DNA of 64,000 nucleotides. Origin: Gautieria morchelliformis (taxonomy: Eukaryota; Basidiomycota; Agaricomycetes; Gomphales; Gomphaceae). Shown here piece by piece: positions 13,252 to 56,500 of the stretch. A model generated the notes under the pieces. That model ran no database searches, had not been told where the DNA came from, and saw only the letters and a program-made list of their open reading frames with translations. The translations under genes and the position numbers were made by a program. The stretch covers positions 62,001 through 126,000 of the forward strand of contig WHVA01000247.1 of assembly GCA_015179125.1 (NCBI GenBank). Reading direction: 5' to 3'. The first letter of the stretch is position 1, and each line of letters opens with the position of its first letter.

Positions 13252-14120
13252 TGTGCTGACTAAGCTCTCCAAGGCGTGTCCGTCACTGATGGATGGTGGT
13301 CATGTGACTGCATCGACGAAGAAATGGTCTTGATCTAGAGGATAGCTGTCTCAAAAGGCTTCGCTTTTGAGATAGTTTAGAGTAGACAGTGATAATAGAC
13401 TCTCAATGAAGAATTGGAGAAAATATCAAGATTTAAGTTCTGTAGCTATCAAACAAGACTACAGTGACTTCAGGGGGTGAAACAGTGGATTCTGGATGAT
13501 CGGTCCATAAACTTGTGGTAGCTACTTATACTATAATAGTGATAACTACCAGTGTTCAGGATAATGGGTGAATGGGTCGAAAAACCATGTGTAACTAAAG
13601 GGTGACTATTTGTAGCCATAAAGCCATGAAATAGATGGGGATAATGGCAGGGGTGTTAGGCTTTGGAATAGAGCCTTGTACCTACTATACAAAGCCCCTG
13701 TCTATATGGTGTCAAGATAGTAATCAACTGGTTGTGTCATGGAGCTCAATAGAAAATGGAAATTAAGTTTCTCTTGTGTAGCATAAATGCTACTCTTGGT
13801 GATGGGGCCGCTGTCTCTGTGCCTCTTCTATGGGGCAGCTGATTGAGCATATGTGCTTGGGACGACATTCTGTCATCATTCTGTGATGTCTGATGCTCCT
13901 GTGCAGTCTATGCTTCTCTGCGGCATTTGGTGCCCGCACCTCCTCGGTGCCTGTGGCCTGGCGCCTGTCGATGTCATGGTTGATGCCATCTGCCGATAGG
14001 CGCACTGTCTCTGATCGGCCGCATGTGGCCGATGCCTTCGTTCCTGTATCTTATCTGATCTATAGATAAGATAGCTGCTTGATCATGAGTGTCATGTGCC
14101 ATCTGCGTGTGTCAATATCT
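13252..14120 (-). repeat. Repeat F, inverted copy (truncated)
   Basis: Reverse complement of about 16480-17363, with shared blocks including TGCTGACTAAGC at its left end and the AGATAAGATA hairpin region at its right. It lies head-to-head with the plus-oriented copy that starts at 14121, lacking roughly the first 100 bp of that copy. F looks like an LTR (TG...CA) but no internal region or clear duplication was found. Confidence 0.75.
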
Positions 14121-14162
14121 TGTTATGATAGATGCAATTATCCTATTCTAAGTCATCTATGT

Positions 14163-14365
14163 TGTAGAGAGGGAAGCCTCGCTGGAGTGACAAACTGCGC
14201 AGAACTACTAACGCAGCTGGTAGTGAGCGGGAAAGAGGAGTCTCCATTACTAATCTAAGTGGACCACTATATACTCTGAGAACAACGGGAGTGGCACAAG
14301 GTGACATCATACTAGAAGGCAAGGAAAACATATAATCTCCAACTAGAGAGTGTAGCTCTCTTACA
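14163..14365 (-). repeat. Element G, 3' terminal repeat
   Basis: 203-bp direct repeat of 16222-16424. It is preceded by ATGT, one half of the target-site duplication. Confidence 0.92.
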
Positions 14366-14726
14366 TCTGCCAGGACTTCTTTTGAAGATCTGAACTAACT
14401 ACTGGTCAACTGCAATGAGATACTGGTGATGTATGATCCAGGGAGTAGGGATGACACCGGGTACGAGTATGAGCCATCGGCGCTTGGCACAGGGACTATG
14501 AGAGGGCAGGGGCGTCGTACGTGTGAGGGAGAGAGCGTGGAAGGGTGCAGTCGGGGAATAGACGAGATGGGGTGATAGGAAGAAGGCGGCACAGACAGAG
14601 AAGGCATGCATGAGCTGGATGATGTTGTCGATGCTGTAATGGAGCCTGCACCGCTGCATTGCGTGTGTGTACGTGTGTCATCGAGGACCGGCGCCTGCAG
14701 GTTTGTGGAGTTTGCACGTGGCCGCG

Positions 14727-16184
14727 TCATGTCGTCGTGGCCCTCCTTCTGCATGGTGCGCATGTTGTTGGATCGCATGACGGTGCGAGGATAGAAGGCA
14801 TGAGTTGACCTGGGGAGGGAAATCGGCGGTGGCAGTGGCTGTTAAGTTGTGGCAAAGCCATCTGTGCATGGCGGATGTGCGAGGCGGTGGCTAGGGGATG
14901 TGTGTCTGCTCCGGTGGACCCGTTGTGCGATGCCATCTGCGCCTGCATCATTGTCTCGCGGGTCTGCCTCTCGGTGTCCTTCGGATGCATCGCATTCTCT
15001 CGAGTCATTGCGGGTGCGTGCATGCTCACGTGGGTCTCGGTCAGGGTCGCGATCTCATGACTCCTCGCCATCTGCTGCATCTCTGTCCTGCGGTGTCGCT
15101 GCGTGACATCGTGCGTCGGTACGCAGGTTGTGGCTGCGAGGGGAGTTTGCATAGGAGCATTCTGTTTGGACGGTGCGGGTGAGGGAGAGCATGGAGGTGA
15201 GGAAGGAACCCAATGGCTAGGCAGCCTGTGACGTCGTGAAAAATGCATCGGCGTGTACTGAGCACGCAAGGAAGGGAGTGGAGGCGTAGGATAAAGGGGA
15301 AAATGCGCCCGGGCATGGAGGTGCGTGTCGGTTCGTGGCTGCCTTGCCACATCACATGTCTGGACGACGGTCTCGAGGGTTGCGCTGTTGCCGTGGGTGG
15401 CGCCAATGCCTGTGGTCCTTCTGGTTGTAGCCGTGCATGGCACTGTAGGTGGGAACGTGTGGGACACATCCGCGCATGGTGCAACGCGTGCATGGGAGGG
15501 AGCCGAGCTGGTGGCGCATGAGGAGGTTTGGGCGACACCATAAAACTGTGAGGAACATAGCTGTGGGTCCTTTCTGACGACTCTGTGCACCCTGGTGTGT
15601 CGCTTAAGTCGGCGGCTGGTTGAAAAGGCACGAGAGCACGTAGCACAAGTGTGTTGGCTCATCGCGCCACTCCGATTGTTCCCTGGGACTCGGATGACTG
15701 TAAGACAGGGCACATACGGAATATCTCGATGAGATAGGACTGATAAGGATGGAACTGAATTGGATGGTGGTTGAGAAACGACTGGCAAGGAAGGGGAAGG
15801 TGTTGGTGGATAGCAGACTATAGACTCGGGACTCTTGTCATCCTGGAACGAGCGAAGGAGTCCATCAGAAATGGCTGGAGAGATAGCAAGTAGGTCCTCC
15901 AAGGAGAGTGTAATGGGGGTTTGGAGAGGATCATCTGTGGGTGCGATGGATGTCAACAGGATACGTTCTAAGACACTTGTGACTGTGCCGCGCATCGCCG
16001 CCGGGTTGCCCTGCGTTTCGACTGACTCGCTGTGGTTCATTTCAATTTGATCGACTAAGTATAACTTGTTTCTTGCGACCGACGTGTTTCTTGCGACCGA
16101 CAGTTCGAATGTGACAGAGCGAGGGAAGGTGTAATGGATGGTCTCCTGCCATGGACAGACAGAAGCTGAGGCTGGGCGTGACAC
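14727..16184 (-). CDS. C2H2 zinc-finger ORF of element G
   Basis: An uninterrupted minus-strand frame of 485 codons fills the inside of element G. A classical C2H2 finger sits at residues 180-200 (C180, C183, H196, H200; x2, x12, x3 spacing). Residues 89-112, with PITLSLEDLLAISP, resemble the linker between Gag and protease in some basidiomycete retroelement polyproteins; that is recollection, not a search result. The C-terminal 280 residues are rich in His, Pro and Thr and low in complexity. The first ATG lies only 38 bp from the terminal repeat, so M49 (16040) is a likelier start. It could bind DNA or the element's RNA; function is unknown. Other long overlapping frames exist here because the region is GC-rich, which lowers certainty that the whole frame is translated. 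Confidence 0.6.
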   Translation of the reverse strand: MSRPASASVCPWQETIHYTFPRSVTFELSVARNTSVARNKLYLVDQIEMNHSESVETQGNPAAMRGTVTSVLERILLTSIAPTDDPLQTPITLSLEDLLAISPAISDGLLRSFQDDKSPESIVCYPPTPSPSLPVVSQPPSNSVPSLSVLSHRDIPYVPCLTVIRVPGNNRSGAMSQHTCATCSRAFSTSRRLKRHTRVHRVVRKDPQLCSSQFYGVAQTSSCATSSAPSHARVAPCADVSHTFPPTVPCTATTRRTTGIGATHGNSATLETVVQTCDVARQPRTDTHLHARAHFPLYPTPPLPSLRAQYTPMHFSRRHRLPSHWVPSSPPCSPSPAPSKQNAPMQTPLAATTCVPTHDVTQRHRRTEMQQMARSHEIATLTETHVSMHAPAMTRENAMHPKDTERQTRETMMQAQMASHNGSTGADTHPLATASHIRHAQMALPQLNSHCHRRFPSPGQLMPSILAPSCDPTTCAPCRRRATTT

Positions 16185-16221
16185 GGAAAGGTTGAGAGTT
16201 CTTGCGAACGGGGCAGCCAGA

Positions 16222-16424
16222 TGTAGAGAGGGAAGCCTTGCTGGAGTGACAAACTGCGCAGAACTACTAACGCAGCTGGTAGTGAGTGGGAAAGAGGAGT
16301 CTCCATTACTAATCTAAGTGGACCACTATATACTCTGAGAACAATGGGAGTGGCACAAGGTGACATCATACTAGAAGACAAGGAAAACATATAATCTCCA
16401 ACTAGAGAGTGTAGCTCTCTTACA
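16222..16424 (-). repeat. Element G, 5' terminal repeat
   Basis: 203-bp direct repeat of 14163-14365, followed by ATGT, the other half of the duplication. Confidence 0.92.
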
Positions 16425-17363
16425 ATGTACAAAGAAACTAATAAAAGAAAAGAAAGAAAAATGATTAAAAAGGAATAGGAACAATGCTTATGATAGACGT
16501 CGACATAGACGACAGATACACGACATCACGAATAGCTATCTTATCTACAGATTAGATAAGATACAGGGATATGGGCGTCGACCATGTGTGGCTGATCAGA
16601 GACAGCATGCCTATCGACTGATGGCATCGGCCATGACGTCGACAGGTGCCAGGCCACAGGCACCGAGGAGGTGCGGGCACCAAATGCCACAGAGGGACAC
16701 AGACTGCGCAGGAGCACCGGATATTGTGGAGTGACTCCAGAACGTCATCCATAATACGTATATTCAATTGGCTGCCCCACAGAAGAGGCACAGAGACAGC
16801 GGCCCCATCACCAAGCCTAGCATTTATGCTAGGCAGGACAGATTTAATTTCTATTCTCTATTGGACTCCATGACACGACCAGCTGATTATTATCTTGACA
16901 CCATGTGGAAAGGGGCTTTGTATACTAGGTACAAGACTCTATTCCAAAGCTTAAACAACCCTGACACTATCCCCATCATCCCATGATTTTATGACTATAA
17001 TTAGTCACCCCTCTAGTTACAAGTAGTTTTTCGACCCATCTGCTCACTATCTCGAACACCAGTAGTTACCAATAATATAGTATAAGTAGTCACTACGAAT
17101 GTATGAATAAAATTATCCAGAATCAACTGATTCACCCCCTGAAGTTACTGCAGTCTTGTTTGATAGCTATAGAACTTAGATCTCGATAGTTTACTCCAAT
17201 TCTTCGTTGAGAGTTCACTATTATTGCCTACTATAGACTGCCTCAAAAGCGAAGCCTTTTGACTTAGTTGTTCCTTAGATTGATACCATTTTCTTGTCGA
17301 CACGGTCACATGACTTCCATCCATCAGTGCCGGACGCGTCTCGAAGGGCTTAGTCAGCACACA

Positions 17364-41291: not shown

Positions 41292-41495
41292 TGTAGAGAG
41301 GGAAGCCTCACTGGAGTGACAAACTGCGCAGAACTACTGATGCAGCTGGTAGTGAGCGGGAAAGAGGAGTCTCTATTACTAATCTAAGTGGACTCATTAC
41401 ATACTCTGATAACAATGGGAGTGGCACAAGGTGACATTGTACTAAAAGACAAGAAAAACCTATAATCTCCAACTAGAGAGCGTAGCTCTCTTACA
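41292..41495 (-). mobile_element. Solo terminal repeat of element G
   Basis: 204 bp matching the terminal repeats of element G, flanked by a perfect 4-bp duplication ACGA (41288-41291, 41496-41499). It shows that G can insert independently and collapse to a single repeat. Confidence 0.92.
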
Positions 41496-43574: not shown

Positions 43575-46500
43575 CGCCCCCTCAAGCTTAATATATTCCG
43601 ATTTGCTCGTTGAGGATCTTCACTCTAGGACTAGAAAGTCCTTTGGTGAGGATATCTGCCAACATTTGTTCGGTTGGCAAATAAACGAGCTTGGCTTGTT
43701 GATTTTTGATTATATCTCGAAGGAAATATAATCTGATGTCGAAATGTTTGGTTCTCATGTGTTGTTGAGTGCCATACGTGATGGCAATGGCTGATTGATT
43801 GTCTGAATAAATTTTGATGGGTCTGTTCAGTGGTTGGAATATTTCAGAAATAAAATGGCGCATCCAAAGAGCCTCTTTGCCCGCATGGGTCAGGGCGACG
43901 AATTCGGCTTCAGTTGATGAGAGGGCTACTATCGACTGTTTCTGGCAACTCCATGAAACAGTGCCTCCATCAATCTGAAATAAGTATGCCGAATACGAAC
44001 GCCTATGACTCTGTGAACCCCAATCCGCATCTGAATACCCCATCAAGCCGTCTCGATTTCTTCCAAGTGTGAGCTTGTAATGCTTCGTGCCTTTCAAATA
44101 TTTGAAGACACGTTTGACTGCATTCCAATGTGTGCCACCTGGATTTTCGAGGAATTGCGAAAGCAATGACACCGCAAATGCAATGTCAGGTCGAGTGGCT
44201 ACAGCTGCCCACATCAGTGATCCTATGGCTTGCCTGTATGGAAACTTCGACATGGCTTTCTTGCCTCTCTCTGTAGAAGGACACTGGTCTTTTGATAATT
44301 TAACAGCTGGATCAAGGGGCGTAGCATAAGTCTTTGCATCTTCGAGATTGAATTTCTTGATGATCTTCTCGATGTATGCAGGTTGTGAAATTGCAATAGT
44401 TTTCTTCTGCCAGTCTCTTTCGATTTTGAGATTCAATAGCCAATGAATCTCGCCTAGATCTTTCATACTGAAGACCTGAGCAAGATCTCGTTTGACTTCG
44501 TCCAGGACTGACTGATTCTCAGCTGTGATGGTGAGATCATCCACAGCTGTTGCAATGATCACATGCCCCTTTCCGCCACGTCTATAAAATACAGCCCCAT
44601 CTGTGGCTGACGTAGTGAATCCTAATTTGTGGAATTCACCACTTAGACGTTTGTACCATTCCCTTCCAGATTGTTTGAGGCCATAGAGTGCTTTCTTCAA
44701 AAGTAGCACTTCGTCTTTGTCTCTAGACTCATATCCATACGGCTGCTTCATGTAAATAGGTTCAGGTAGTGTAGCATTGAGGTATGCATAGTCCACGTCC
44801 ATTTGATGGATAGGCCAGTCATTCCTAGCAGCAATGGCGCATATGATCCGTAGGGAGGATAACCGAGCAACAGGTGAGTATGTCTCATCATAGTCGACTC
44901 CAAACTTCTGTGTGAAGCCTTGGGCGACCATTCTCGATTTAGGCATTATTGGTTTCCCTTCTGGATTACGCTTCCAAAGGTAGACCCATTTATTACCGAC
45001 AATATTGGCTCCAGGAGGTGGTTTGGCTCGTTCCCACACTCCCTTGTCGATTAGGGCCTCATACTCTTTGTCCATTGATTTCTTCCATATAGGATTATTC
45101 AGAGCTTCGTCTGCATTGCTAGGTTCAATTTGACTCAAATCCGGCGCCTTGTTATTGTTTTGACCGTCGGTTAGAAACGCACTGATGGCACACTCATAGC
45201 TACTGATGCCATCAATCTCGGAGGATAATTCTTGGTCGAATAAAACTTCTTTATGGTCCTCAACGTCCTCGTAAGCTAGCGTAGTCATATGTGTGCCAGC
45301 TTGTCTCTGGGTTTGAGATCTTGTTACGGGACCTGATGGGGCCGGCTGCACTTGTTGTTGACGGATCCTTTCGCTTCTCCTTATCGGTTCAGCTTCTCTA
45401 GGTCTGTCATCAACTCCCTGAATAGGTTGCAGCTTTTCAAGATATTCCTCTGGTGCATTTTCATCAATTTCTTCGATCTTTGCCTCTTCGCTGACTAAGC
45501 GACCGGGCACAGGCACTGATGCCGGAATGGCCTTCTTCTCCTCTCTAGACGTAGGTAGCTTGGATTCCTCAATAGAAATGATTGGGACCTTTCCCTTCTT
45601 CATCTCTGAATCAAACACAACATTCCGCTCGACAGAAACTTTGTGCGAGTCAGGCCAATAAATATAATGACCATGGCTCTGCGCAGAAATTCCTATCCAC
45701 CGAGCTCTCTTGGCACGAGCTTCCAATTTATCTCCCTGAGTGACCTTAACATAGACTTCAGTTCCCCACGCGTGAATGTCTTTGAGATTCGGTTTCTCAT
45801 GGTGGATCATCTCGTAGGGCGTTTTATCCGGTAGAGCTCTTGTGTGCGTCCTGTTCCTAAGATAATTGGCATGCTGTATTGCATAGCCCCATAATATCTT
45901 AGGAAGGCCTGATTCTAACAGCATGGCACGAGTTCTCTCAGTGAGAGTTCGGTTCAGACGTTCGGCAACACCATTAGACTCTGGTGTGTCGTGTACCGTC
46001 AACTGATGCTTCGTGCCTTGTTTGGCTAGATGCTGTTCGAATTCAGAGCTCGTATACTCGCCCCCTCGATCAGAAACAAGTGCCTTGATGTGCACATTTC
46101 TCTGTCGAAGCATTAAAGCCTCATAGAGCTTGTACTTTGAGAATGCTTCTGATTTGTTCGCCATGAGATAGATCACCGATTCTCTTGAGTAATCATCGAT
46201 AAAGGAGACATAATATGACTTCTTATCGATTGTGAGGTGCCTTGCAGGTCCCCAGACATCAGAATAAATTCTGTCACCGAATTTTGATGTTCGGTCTCTG
46301 GGTTCTCGAGGAAGAGGTTTGCGTGCAATCTTGGCCTGAATACACGCATCGCAGACAATTCTATCGCCTGTGGAGCTCAGTTCAATGCCCAATATCATGC
46401 CATGATTTAATAGATGTTGTAGGGACTTCTGTGAGATATGCCCCATTTTTTGATGAATTTCCATGGCAGACAAACACATATGGGCTTGAGCACTTGGTGA

Positions 46501-47836
46501 CTGGAGGTCTAGTCGATATAAACCATTGACCTTCGGTGCTTGCATCAATACCTTTCCAGTAGCGTTAGATATTGTGCATTTCTGGCCACCGAGTCGAATG
46601 TCGTAGCCAGCATCATCGCACCGACCGATCGAGACGAGGGTAGCAGCAATTTTTGGAGCATAATATGTATCTTGCAACGTGACTTCTACTGTTTTATCTC
46701 CAACCTTGTTGGATAATACAAGCAGTCCTGAACCGAAGGCATCAAAAGTGCCTTTGTTGGCTGCTCGGATAGTCCTCGGCTGTGAGAATTGACAGTAGTT
46801 CCTCAATAAATTTTTGTGAGGAGTCATATGCGATGTCGTTCCGGTGTCGAGTATAACTATAACTCCTGAGGATGTGCTCAGATTGAAATTAGAGCACTCG
46901 TCAAAATTGGTGAAGGCAAGATGCCCATCACCACTTTCCTCAGAAGAGGACTCTTCTTCGGCAACATTCGCTTTTGCTTTACCCTTCTTCTTCTTCTTGG
47001 CTTTGGCTTTTTTCTTCTGACGTGGTCCTTGACCTTCTTTACCACCTCCTTTAGCCCAGCAATTTTCGATAGAATGTCCAGGCTTTTTGCAGTTGGTGCA
47101 TATATGCGCCTTCTGCCCCTTCTGGTCCTTCTTAGTAGATGAACCAATAAACACCTGCTCTTCTTGCGGGAGTGTTTTCTTCCTGTCATACTGAGCCTTT
47201 AGTACCCTAATAATATTATCAGGGACCAATGGCATCCCGCATTCTTCAAGCGAAGTGGTAAGGGCGTTCATGACTGCCTCATAGGATGGTGGAAGTGACG
47301 CAAGGATGATGTCCATAATTCTTCTTCGGAAACTCTGGCTCCCATCTCATTAAGACGAGCATATAGGTCTTGGGCCTTGTCCAAATGATCTCTCAAGTCT
47401 CCATCCTCAGGACATCTCATACTGCGGAGTTGTCTCTGCAGGCTGGTGAGGACCATCTTGGGCTTTTTGGTCATCTCATTGACCAGTGCATCCCAAGTCT
47501 CTTTTGCTGTCTTCTGCTTCTGTAGCATCAGGGCTAATGACTCTGACACTGAGACGATGATTTGGGTCTTGGCTTGTCCTTCTCTAGCAAGGTATCTCTC
47601 CAGCTTCTCCTCAGCCTTATCCATCTGAGTTTCCTCAGCTTCTGTAAGAATATGGCCTGGGGGCATAACTGGAGGATCAGGAGGTCGAGTGACTCTCCCT
47701 TCTACATGCTTGAGTAGATTTTTGGACTCGAAATAGCTGATGAGAGTGGCTCGCCACAATGGCCAATTACTTCCATCAGTAGCAAGCTTCTCAACACCCA
47801 ATAGCTTCTCAGAAGTGTCTCCGGGGCCCATAACCC

Positions 47837-53582: not shown

Positions 53583-56500
53583 TCACCCCCCTCTAGCCTG
53601 CTACGTCCTCGAAGCACGGGACATGGGGGATTGAAAGGCCAGCGAGCGGATTCGGTGAGGGGCACCAGGGTGTGTCCTATAGAACTCGCGGAGTTTGTCC
53701 AGAGCGAACACATCTTGCTCCGGGACCCATGAATCCTCCTCATACCCATACCCTTCCCATTTCACGAGGAATTGGAGTCATCCTCACACAAACCGGCTGT
53801 CCAGGATCTGCTCCACCACATAGTGCTCTTCCACATCTACAATTTCTGGTGGAGGTGGGAGATGAGCCTTCCGCCCTGGAATTGGGTCCTCAAACACAGG
53901 GAGCAACTTCGCTATGTTGAAGACGGGGTGTAGGCGGGACATGGAGTTCGGAAGTCGGAGGTGTAGTGGTGGGCAAGCTTCTGCGAAGGGCGAGTGGTGC
54001 GGATGTCACTTGCATCTAGATACACCTTGTCTCCAACTTGGTACTCCGGGGCAGGAACCCGGCGTTGGTTGTAGTACCTTTCCATGTCATCCTTGGCCTT
54101 CACAAGGGCAGACTTGGCTTCCGAAAGGGTGGAGTCCATGCAGTCTCGGAACTCATTGACTGTCTCGAGTCAGGACTCTGCCTGGTGTGGTTCAAAGCCC
54201 ATCCGCAGGTGTCGTCCAGAGTCAAGCATGAAGGGAGTCTGTTGTGTGGCGGAATGTACATGGTTGTTGTATTGGAATTCCGCCAGTGGAAGTAACTCGT
54301 CACAGTCATCCTGCCTCTCATTGACAAAGAGGCAGAGATATTGCTCCAGCTCCTGATTGACCCGTTCCATCTGTCCATCACCCTGTGGATGGTATGCTGT
54401 GGTGGCAGCCAGCTTTATGCCGAGCAGGCGGTAGAGCTCCCGAGTCAGTTCTGCGATGAACTGTGGACCTCGGTCAGAAACGACTTGCTTCTGGAGCCCA
54501 TGCAACTTCCAGACATGTGCAAGGAACAGGCGGGCCGCTCCGAGAGCTGTGATCGTCGTGTGCATCGGAATGAAGTGGGACACCTTGCTTATCGAGTCCA
54601 CGATGTTCATAATTGCGTCGTAGCCATGAGACTCTGGGAGTTCAATGATGAAGTCAACACTGATGGTGTCCCAGCAGGATTCTGGAATTGCGAGTGGAAT
54701 GAGCCCTCTGACGGGTGGATGTCGCTGTGCTTTGGTCCGGAGACAAAGGTCGCACATCTTCATGTACTGTCCAATATAGCAGGCCATCTGAGGCCACCAG
54801 TAGTTCCAAGCCACTAACTCCAGCATCTTCCACCTGCCAGCATGCCCAGCGACCTGGGTGTCATGGTGTTGGGACATGATGTGGCGGTGGAGGTCGGCCC
54901 CACCTGGAACATAGGCCTTGCCTCTGAAGTGGAGCAGCCCATCACGTTCTGACCACTCTGCTGCCCGTACAGACTGTGAGTGCCCTTTCTGCAGTTCCTC
55001 CACCACCTTCACCACCGATTCCTCCTTCTCTCCATTCCGGTACTGCCTCCGGATGCCCCGGAGTATTTCCGCTTCCGCCCCAACTGCAGTCACTCCTTCG
55101 AGGGTGCAGATTGCAAAGAGACTTGGGCGGAGTAATGTCATGTCAGCATTGTCCCTGCTTCCGCTTCCATGATCCGCGTGGCAGGATAGGGCATCGGGCT
55201 TGCCCATGGTGCGGCCGGGGCGGTGGTGGAGTATGAAGTCAAACTGGGACAGGTGTAGGGACCACCGTGCTTGTCGTCGGTTCAACTTCTTAGACGTGCG
55301 GAAGCACTCAAGGTTCTTGTGGTCTGTCCAGATCTCAAATGGGCATAGAGCCCCCTCGAGGAAGTGTCGCCCCTCCTCCAGCGCTCGGATGATTGCCAGC
55401 ATTTCCTTGTCGTGGATCTCATAGTTCCGCTTGACCGGACTAAGGCTTTTAGAGAAGAAGGCAATTGGATGCCACCCCCCACCATCTTCCGATGACTGCT
55501 GTGACAAGACCGCTCCGGTGGCTGTGTCGGAAGAATCCGCCTCGACTCGATAAGGGCGAGAGTCGTCGGGAAAGATCAGGACTGGGGCAGAAGTGATCAG
55601 CTCCTTGAGTTTGTCAAAGGAGGCCTGTTCCGGCTCCCCCCACCGCCATCCAACACCCTTCTTGGTGAGGTCAAAGAGGGCACGGGCATGGCAGGTGAAG
55701 TCCTCGATGAACCGCTGGTAGAAATTGACAAACCCAATGAAGGACTGGACCTCTTTCTTGTTCCGCAGCACAAGCCATTCTGACATGCCGGAAACTTTGA
55801 CTGGGTCCATTTCCACGTTTCCTTCTGACACGATCACCCCAAGATACTCTATCCGCGTCCGCTCAAATTCGCACTTTTCCGGCTTGAGACACAGGTTGTA
55901 CTCCCGGAGCCGTTCCAGCACTCTCCGCACGACCTCCCGATGTTCCAACATTGTTTTCATGAAGATGAGGATGTCATCGAGGTAGATGCAGACAACCCCT
56001 TCTGCTATCATGTCATGGAAGATGTCATTCATCATCATCTGGAATGTGGCAGGACTGTTGGTGAGGCCAAAGAACATGACCTGTGGCTCAAAGAGTCCTC
56101 GGTTGGTGTGGGTTGTGTCTACTATCTCTGTGATGGACCTGCCTCATTGGGGCTTATATCCACATTGAACACTGGGATCGCACATTGCAACTTCCGCATG
56201 GTCAGTCAGTTCCGTTCCACATAGTCTCAGTCCATAAACTGACCAGTGGCCCCACAATTGACAAGGGCGGGTCTGGATTTGACTTCCACCGTATCTGTCG
56301 TCTGGATCTCCACCTTAATGACTAGTGACTTGGTGCCAGGGGTGGCAGCAACAACATAGCGCTTTGGGAGGCATCTCTCCCAAGGGCGGATGCGAGATGG
56401 ACGGGGTGTTGGATTCGGCTTTTGTGTGACTTTATCTGGTGGGTCTGTACGAAGTGAGGGGAGTGGGGGCTTTTCATTCTCTACTTCAAGACAGGAAAAC

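Follow-up and report, generated by a model that had tools for sequence, protein, structure and literature searches.

The element at positions 14163-16424 of the 64,000-nucleotide stretch of Gautieria morchelliformis DNA analysed here (the window) raised the question of how a small LTR element whose only frame encodes a C2H2 zinc-finger protein is propagated, and what that protein does for it. As a rule, LTR elements of the non-autonomous kind are considered to retain only signals, or a Gag. The element is, in our judgement, probably a pol-less, non-autonomous Ty3/gypsy derivative that is moved in trans and encodes a Gag-derived finger protein. The following features were annotated:

16425..16428, no strand: target site duplication (TSD) on the 5' side, ATGT on the plus strand (flank reading)
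16222..16424, minus strand: 5' LTR in the coding orientation, 203 bp, TG..CA (repeat comparison)
16210..16219, minus strand: primer binding site TGGCTGCCCC, 10 nt complementary to a tRNA 3' end, read as tRNA-Asn(GTT)
14727..16040, minus strand: finger-protein frame, 437 codons and a stop when started at the first ATG (stop-to-stop opening 14727-16313)
15843..15986, minus strand: Gag-protease-linker-like stretch, placed via alignment to sister copies matching DUF4100
15585..15653, minus strand: single canonical C2H2 zinc finger HTCATCSRAFSTSRRLKRHTRVH (Pfam, pattern reading, PDB match)
14419..14508, minus strand: conserved stretch of the C-terminus, CPLIVP..GSYITSI, not in frame in the window copy
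14345..14365, minus strand: LTR-start hairpin, window example
14163..14365, minus strand: 3' LTR in the coding orientation (repeat comparison)
14159..14162, no strand: TSD on the 3' side, ATGT on the plus strand (flank reading)
41292..41495, minus strand: a further family member, a solo LTR with ACGA as its plus-strand TSD (flank reading)

The element was complete, and its coding strand was the minus strand; the first-pass annotation, made from the letters alone, had given neither the strand nor a primer site. The 203-bp direct repeats with TG/CA ends, the ATGT duplication and the four transitions (three at CpG) described there were all reproduced on re-measurement. The two LTRs were 98.0% identical, all four differences being transitions and 3/4 lying at CpG, and ATGT flanked both sides. 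TG..CA LTRs and a 4-bp target duplication accord with a Ty3/gypsy-type LTR element. The LTR of the family started with TGTAAGAGAGCTAC. The primer site TGGCTGCCCC began 2 nt after the 5' LTR, thereby adjoining it, and matched the 3' end of L073 over 10 nt. The corresponding tRNA-end pattern had three genome matches of identical sequence, one of them an Rfam tRNA at C337, and the control had none. The identity Asn(GTT) was based on our own reading of the anticodon loop and one matching program row, whereas a run without introns called the same gene Val(aac). Self-priming of the Tf1 type was rejected, with only 5-6 nt matches. Before the 3' LTR, the window family carried CTGGCAGA or CCGGCGGA and no clear polypurine tract; such a tract was clear by eye in the related elements C1004, C926 and C191.

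The genome (122 Mb, 1113 contigs) was searched with the LTR, and at least 40 matches were scored among 73 candidates. Allowing up to three mismatches, the initial 34 LTR bases were found at 55 places (reversed control, 0), and eight distinct paired loci were recognised (the window, C1089 = C365, C201, C808, C187, C287, C696 and C523), which bore out the proposal that the element belongs to a family. The solo repeat at 41292-41495, the original ground for that proposal, was indeed flanked by its own duplication, ACGA, on both sides. Paired copies were 2.26-3.2 kb long, with the exception of C523 (8.8 kb), which was rejected as a pol-bearing partner, its extra DNA being an opposite-strand gypsy nested inside. 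The LTR pairs were 97.0-99.0% identical (93.6% with one gap in C187), and the primer site followed the 5' LTR in 8/8 paired loci. L009 and L012, on contigs C1089 and C365, have identical flanks and were one insertion, present either as haplotype copies or through a duplication. Eleven LTR copies starting TGCAAG (L110, L111, L115, L117-L122, L136 and L137) also had common flanks. The mean identity of their 30-bp left flanks was 0.86, compared to 0.30 among five controls, and the group is a single solo LTR that was multiplied as a passenger of another repeat family.

The 485-codon frame reported initially (minus strand, 14727-16184) is real, but it opens with GTG, and its first ATG, at 16040, leaves 437 residues. 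The window copy was moreover frameshifted near its 3' end in comparison to sister copies, the conserved C-terminal stretch lying in another frame (14395-14778). This stretch was readable in 7/8 paired loci; it was shortened in C187 and C696, in a different frame in the window, and visible in C808 solely as a reading of another frame. From stop to stop, C187 and C696 were open for 724 and 623 codons, respectively. The Pfam scan, which covered the window frame, returned one C2H2 finger (PF00096, E 2e-4, 22.1 bits, below the cut-off of 25.2) and neither a pol nor a capsid domain, consistent with the single finger and absent pol noted before. The other paired copies were read by eye, and no pol was recognised in their coding-strand frames of at least 150 codons, the nested gypsy in C523 aside. 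The finger satisfied the C2H2 pattern C-X2-C-X12-H-X3-H and was, in a PDB search, nearest by sequence to DNA-binding fingers (ZBTB17, E 3.7e-6, and the consensus finger 1mey). In the predicted protein of the family, a linker-like N-terminus precedes a single C2H2 finger, which is followed by a long tail of low complexity. The N-terminus may bear a weak resemblance to the Gag-protease linker suggested in the first pass: DUF4100 matched at E <= 1 in 8/9 aligned members (best 6e-4), but the sole non-matching member was the window copy, and the linker likeness gave a pairwise BLASTP E of 15 and an hhalign probability of 1.9% (E 0.026). The pre-protease stretch of the pol-bearing gypsy C191 matched an overlapping part of DUF4100, below the Pfam cut-off.

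Sister families were gathered by six-frame searches, for which the finger proteins served as queries first and Gag next. The relatives obtained were C290 and C566; C926 with two further finger frames on C437; C1004, C167, C729 and C465, which had only tail DNA in common with the window family; and gypsy copies, among them C132 and C191, the latter read through pol. The LTRs of C290, C926, C1004, C167, C191 and C132 started TGTAAG with a hairpin, C566 being degraded at this point. The hairpin stems (AGAGAG/CTCTCT, AGGGAG/CTCCCT and AGACAG/CTGTCT) differed between families with pairing kept, on the strength of just two double changes and fold z-scores of -0.9 to -2.7. The 6.6-kb C191 carried gypsy pol between related LTR ends: its LTRs of 453 bp were 99.3% identical over 455 aligned positions, its TSD was CTGA, and a Gag-protease frame was accompanied by an RT-RNase H-integrase frame, for which Pfam scored RNase H and integrase H2C2 above the cut-off and protease, RVT_1 and rve_3 below it. 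C191 resembled the window element in the LTR-start hairpin, TG..CA ends, 4-bp TSD and a similar sequence before the 3' LTR (AGTCCCGG). It differed in its pol frames, a knuckle of CCHC-like appearance (by eye), Pfam matches that included no C2H2 finger, and a primer site of 13 nt to tRNA-Lys instead of the tRNA-Asn used by the window family.

Among the finger-bearing sisters, C926 had 226-bp LTRs (97.8% identical), the TSD GTGC, an 11-nt tRNA-Lys primer site and one 596-codon frame, in which the finger was followed by the first part of a C191-type Gag (71% identical to C191 Gag and 74% to C132 Gag); no pol was seen between its LTRs. C290 had a similar Gag piece, but in a separate frame, 2.5 kb away from that of the finger. 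KEAFGCKD was the common end of the Gag part in C926, C290 and two C437 loci. No capsid emerged when a profile of the Gag start was compared with the PDB, the one match (E 0.19) being unrelated. C926 and C290 shared with the window element a finger with FSTxRRLKRHTRVH and a low-complexity tail, but their LTRs were 226 and 223 bp long and the Gag start lay downstream of the finger; C926 further differed in its tRNA-Lys primer and a coiled-coil-like N-terminus (by eye). When C926 and window-type copies were compared, DNA similarity within the elements was limited to 63 bases at the finger, in C187. C1004 and C167 possessed neither the finger nor the N-terminus. They were 99.8% identical overall, with LTRs identical at 199/199 positions, and occupied different sites (TSD GCAT and GTCC), so this finger-less type moved very recently, and the finger is therefore not needed in cis.

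The best-surviving alternative holds that the finger frame is a role-less leftover and that a deletion derivative spreads by its LTRs and primer site alone. It is favoured by the recent mobility of the finger-less C1004/C167 type and by the frameshift in the window copy. The 23 finger codons gave pS of 0.26-0.78, pN of 0.06-0.28 and pN/pS of 0.20-0.40 (Fisher p 0.0001-0.03 each) in ten chosen, non-independent subfamily pairs, compared to pN/pS of 0.65-2.65 in wrong frames of the same bases. The pairs were drawn from window-type copies (window and C187), C290, C926 and the two C437 finger frames; L010, L016, L027, L035 and L050 were matched but unpaired, and C808, C1089, C696 and C287 were labelled but unused. 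The relatives had been found by protein search and then by a pattern fixing 7/23 residues, which biases towards constraint. When the seven fixed residues were removed, pN/pS was 0.24-0.43 in the six pairs without C437c, whereas in the four C437c pairs the constraint faded, in favour of a role-less frame (0.55-0.83, 0/4 significant). Because pN/pS was low across sister families in comparison to the wrong frames, the finger was probably held by selection while these families diverged. In the adjoining linker, pN/pS was 0.73 for the window versus C290 and 0.55 for C187 versus C290. Decayed fingers were also seen, with a zinc ligand changed in C437b and a stop in the finger of C566.

Within the window family, the picture was closer to neutrality. 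Conservation of the finger frame among copies, which the first-pass annotation had proposed as a check, held in so far as 8/11 copies were stop-free over 156 codons (linker to finger), but the three stops were not fewer than expected neutrally (4.2), and all changes over these codons were near neutral (N 84 and S 40; neutral simulation 87 and 37). The synonymous versus non-synonymous comparison advised there was thus near neutral within the family and spoke for constraint on the finger between sister families. Shared changes leaned synonymous (N/S 23/21 versus 61/19 for singletons, Fisher p 0.009), a signal moderated by recurrent CpG sites and with a mixed wrong-frame control (frame +1 ran the opposite way, p 0.026, and frame +2 the same way, p 0.23). 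Copies thus decay near-neutrally after insertion, while the older changes hint at constraint. The near-neutral changes within the family fit a role-less frame; the finger constraint, the lean of shared changes and the stop-free copies argue against it, and we consider it rather unlikely. The correction for fixed residues and the missing DUF4100 match of the window copy led us to raise its standing slightly and to lower slightly that of the trans-moved derivative with a Gag-derived finger protein.

For the latter, a pol-bearing relative would have to act as helper. The first-pass annotation had recommended looking for a pol-bearing element with the same repeats; genome searches of this possibly incomplete assembly found, among the matches listed, none with the window-family LTR or primer site, let alone both. 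This absence, the different tRNA matched by the pol-bearing C191 and the lack of a clear polypurine tract in the window family weigh against the trans-moved derivative. The pattern of TACA plus the Asn primer site had, among 16 matches, four outside the family (C2, C222, C637 and C543), and the forward control also had one. All four were rejected as helpers, no direct repeat being present (over 6 kb for C637 and 0.8-1 kb for the others); C637 contained one forward frame above 150 codons (163) and no reverse frame above 200.

In the mechanism that we propose for the trans-moved derivative, the element RNA (window minus strand) would be primed by tRNA-Asn, and copied and integrated in trans by proteins from a pol-bearing gypsy relative. 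The single frame would yield a Gag-derived finger protein, by comparison with C926, in which the same kind of finger is fused to the first Gag part. We tentatively suggest that this protein is an adaptor bringing element RNA or cDNA into helper particles: it would join them via its Gag-derived parts and hold the RNA or cDNA. Since the window family has no capsid part, it would fall to the linker-like part to provide the particle link. The protein may be the nucleocapsid substitute envisaged in the first pass, the finger and part of Gag being joined in one C926 frame. A more far-reaching scenario, which we regard as unlikely in its entirety, is that a pol-less gypsy lineage swapped its CCHC knuckle for a C2H2 finger, that this was long selected as an adaptor that acts in trans and to its own benefit, the finger together with a Gag fragment taking the lineage's RNA or cDNA into the particles of a helper, and that one branch shifted to CpG-centred sites.

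The finger could instead belong to a transcription or anti-silencing factor binding the element's own LTR. Its constraint and its proximity to the fingers of ZBTB17 and 1mey are compatible with such a role, but one zinc finger alone confers little binding specificity, and we hold the role to be doubtful.

A targeting factor directing integration to CpG-centred sites was evaluated from the TSDs. A CG centre was present in at least one flank in 18/24 window-family events (14/24 in both flanks) and in 4/20 sister-family events (Fisher p 0.0007), while CG made up 3.6% of window dinucleotides; the other six window-family events had TG/CA (5) or TA (1). The 24 events were those with two flanks after merging C1089/C365, C424/C52 and the 11-member shared-flank group. 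C444, C894/C285, C398/C1113, C437, C759, C169, C670 and C903 were dropped, the second flank being missing, and C437:53255 was left out. C201, C333, C696, C748, C200 and the 11-member group were kept with 3/4 bases equal, and C937 was kept with 2/4 bases (GCAT/GTGT) and not scored as CG. Of 33 sister-family TSDs examined, 20 were kept (C454, C150, C457, C384 and C658 with 3/4 bases) and 13 were excluded for lack of a second flank that matched (C242, C248, C792, C541, C409, C624, C149, C130, C174, C1059, C1100, C338 and C171:106540). The site preference thus lends something to the targeting factor named in the first pass, but the finger as its cause was not borne out: LTRs of the finger-bearing C926/C290 kind had CG in 1/9 events, and for this reason the CpG shift was not credited to the finger. 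A pyrimidine-purine centre was, furthermore, general in the sister families (17/20, with 25% expected from window composition), and in Drosophila such target motifs track element clade (PMC3276498). Targeting by the finger is consequently improbable; in our own reading, the CpG shift would be a property of a putative helper integrase.

Equally improbable is an interference factor, by analogy somewhat like Ty1 p22, in which the Gag-fragment fusion would co-assemble with the helper and restrain it; the common KEAFGCKD end of the Gag part is in keeping with this, but the part concerned comes from the beginning of Gag and not from its C-terminal half, and no capsid part was recognised in the window family. 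No captured host gene was recognised among the matches read as DNA, which lay in LTR elements or fragments and did not include some weak matches (e.g., C130).

TRIM and LARD are non-autonomous LTR elements moved in trans. The window element, a gypsy-type LTR retrotransposon without autonomy, falls outside TRIM, LARD and TR-GAG as these are defined in PMC5818461. TRIM and LARD are described there as having no coding regions, whereas the window family keeps its frame in most copies and the finger is apparently constrained. TR-GAG retains the Gag domain and has no pol; in contrast, the window frame had no capsid match, and C926 contained the first Gag part only. The layout resembles that of pol-less LTR elements with a Gag-related frame and helper dependence, but unlike those that keep Gag, the window frame combines a C2H2 finger and a linker-like N-terminus with no recognised capsid domain. 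A literature search of open-licence PMC titles and abstract starts returned no such C2H2 LTR element. If the reading is true, a C2H2 finger under selection across protein contexts and LTRs would represent parasites evolving their own coding function, and the presence of pol-bearing, finger-bearing and finger-less sisters in one genome makes the role testable.

A long inverted repeat surrounded the window element, which lay close to its centre; the repeat had arms at 13656-14076 and 16534-16954 (421 nt, 83% complementary) and further arms at 13506-13602 and 17009-17105, and is perhaps a fold-back element. Elsewhere in the window, a copia-type frame (43588-47346, minus strand, 1252 codons) with RVT_2 and rve and a gypsy-type frame (54170-56143, minus strand, 657 codons) with RT, RNase H and integrase H2C2 were observed.
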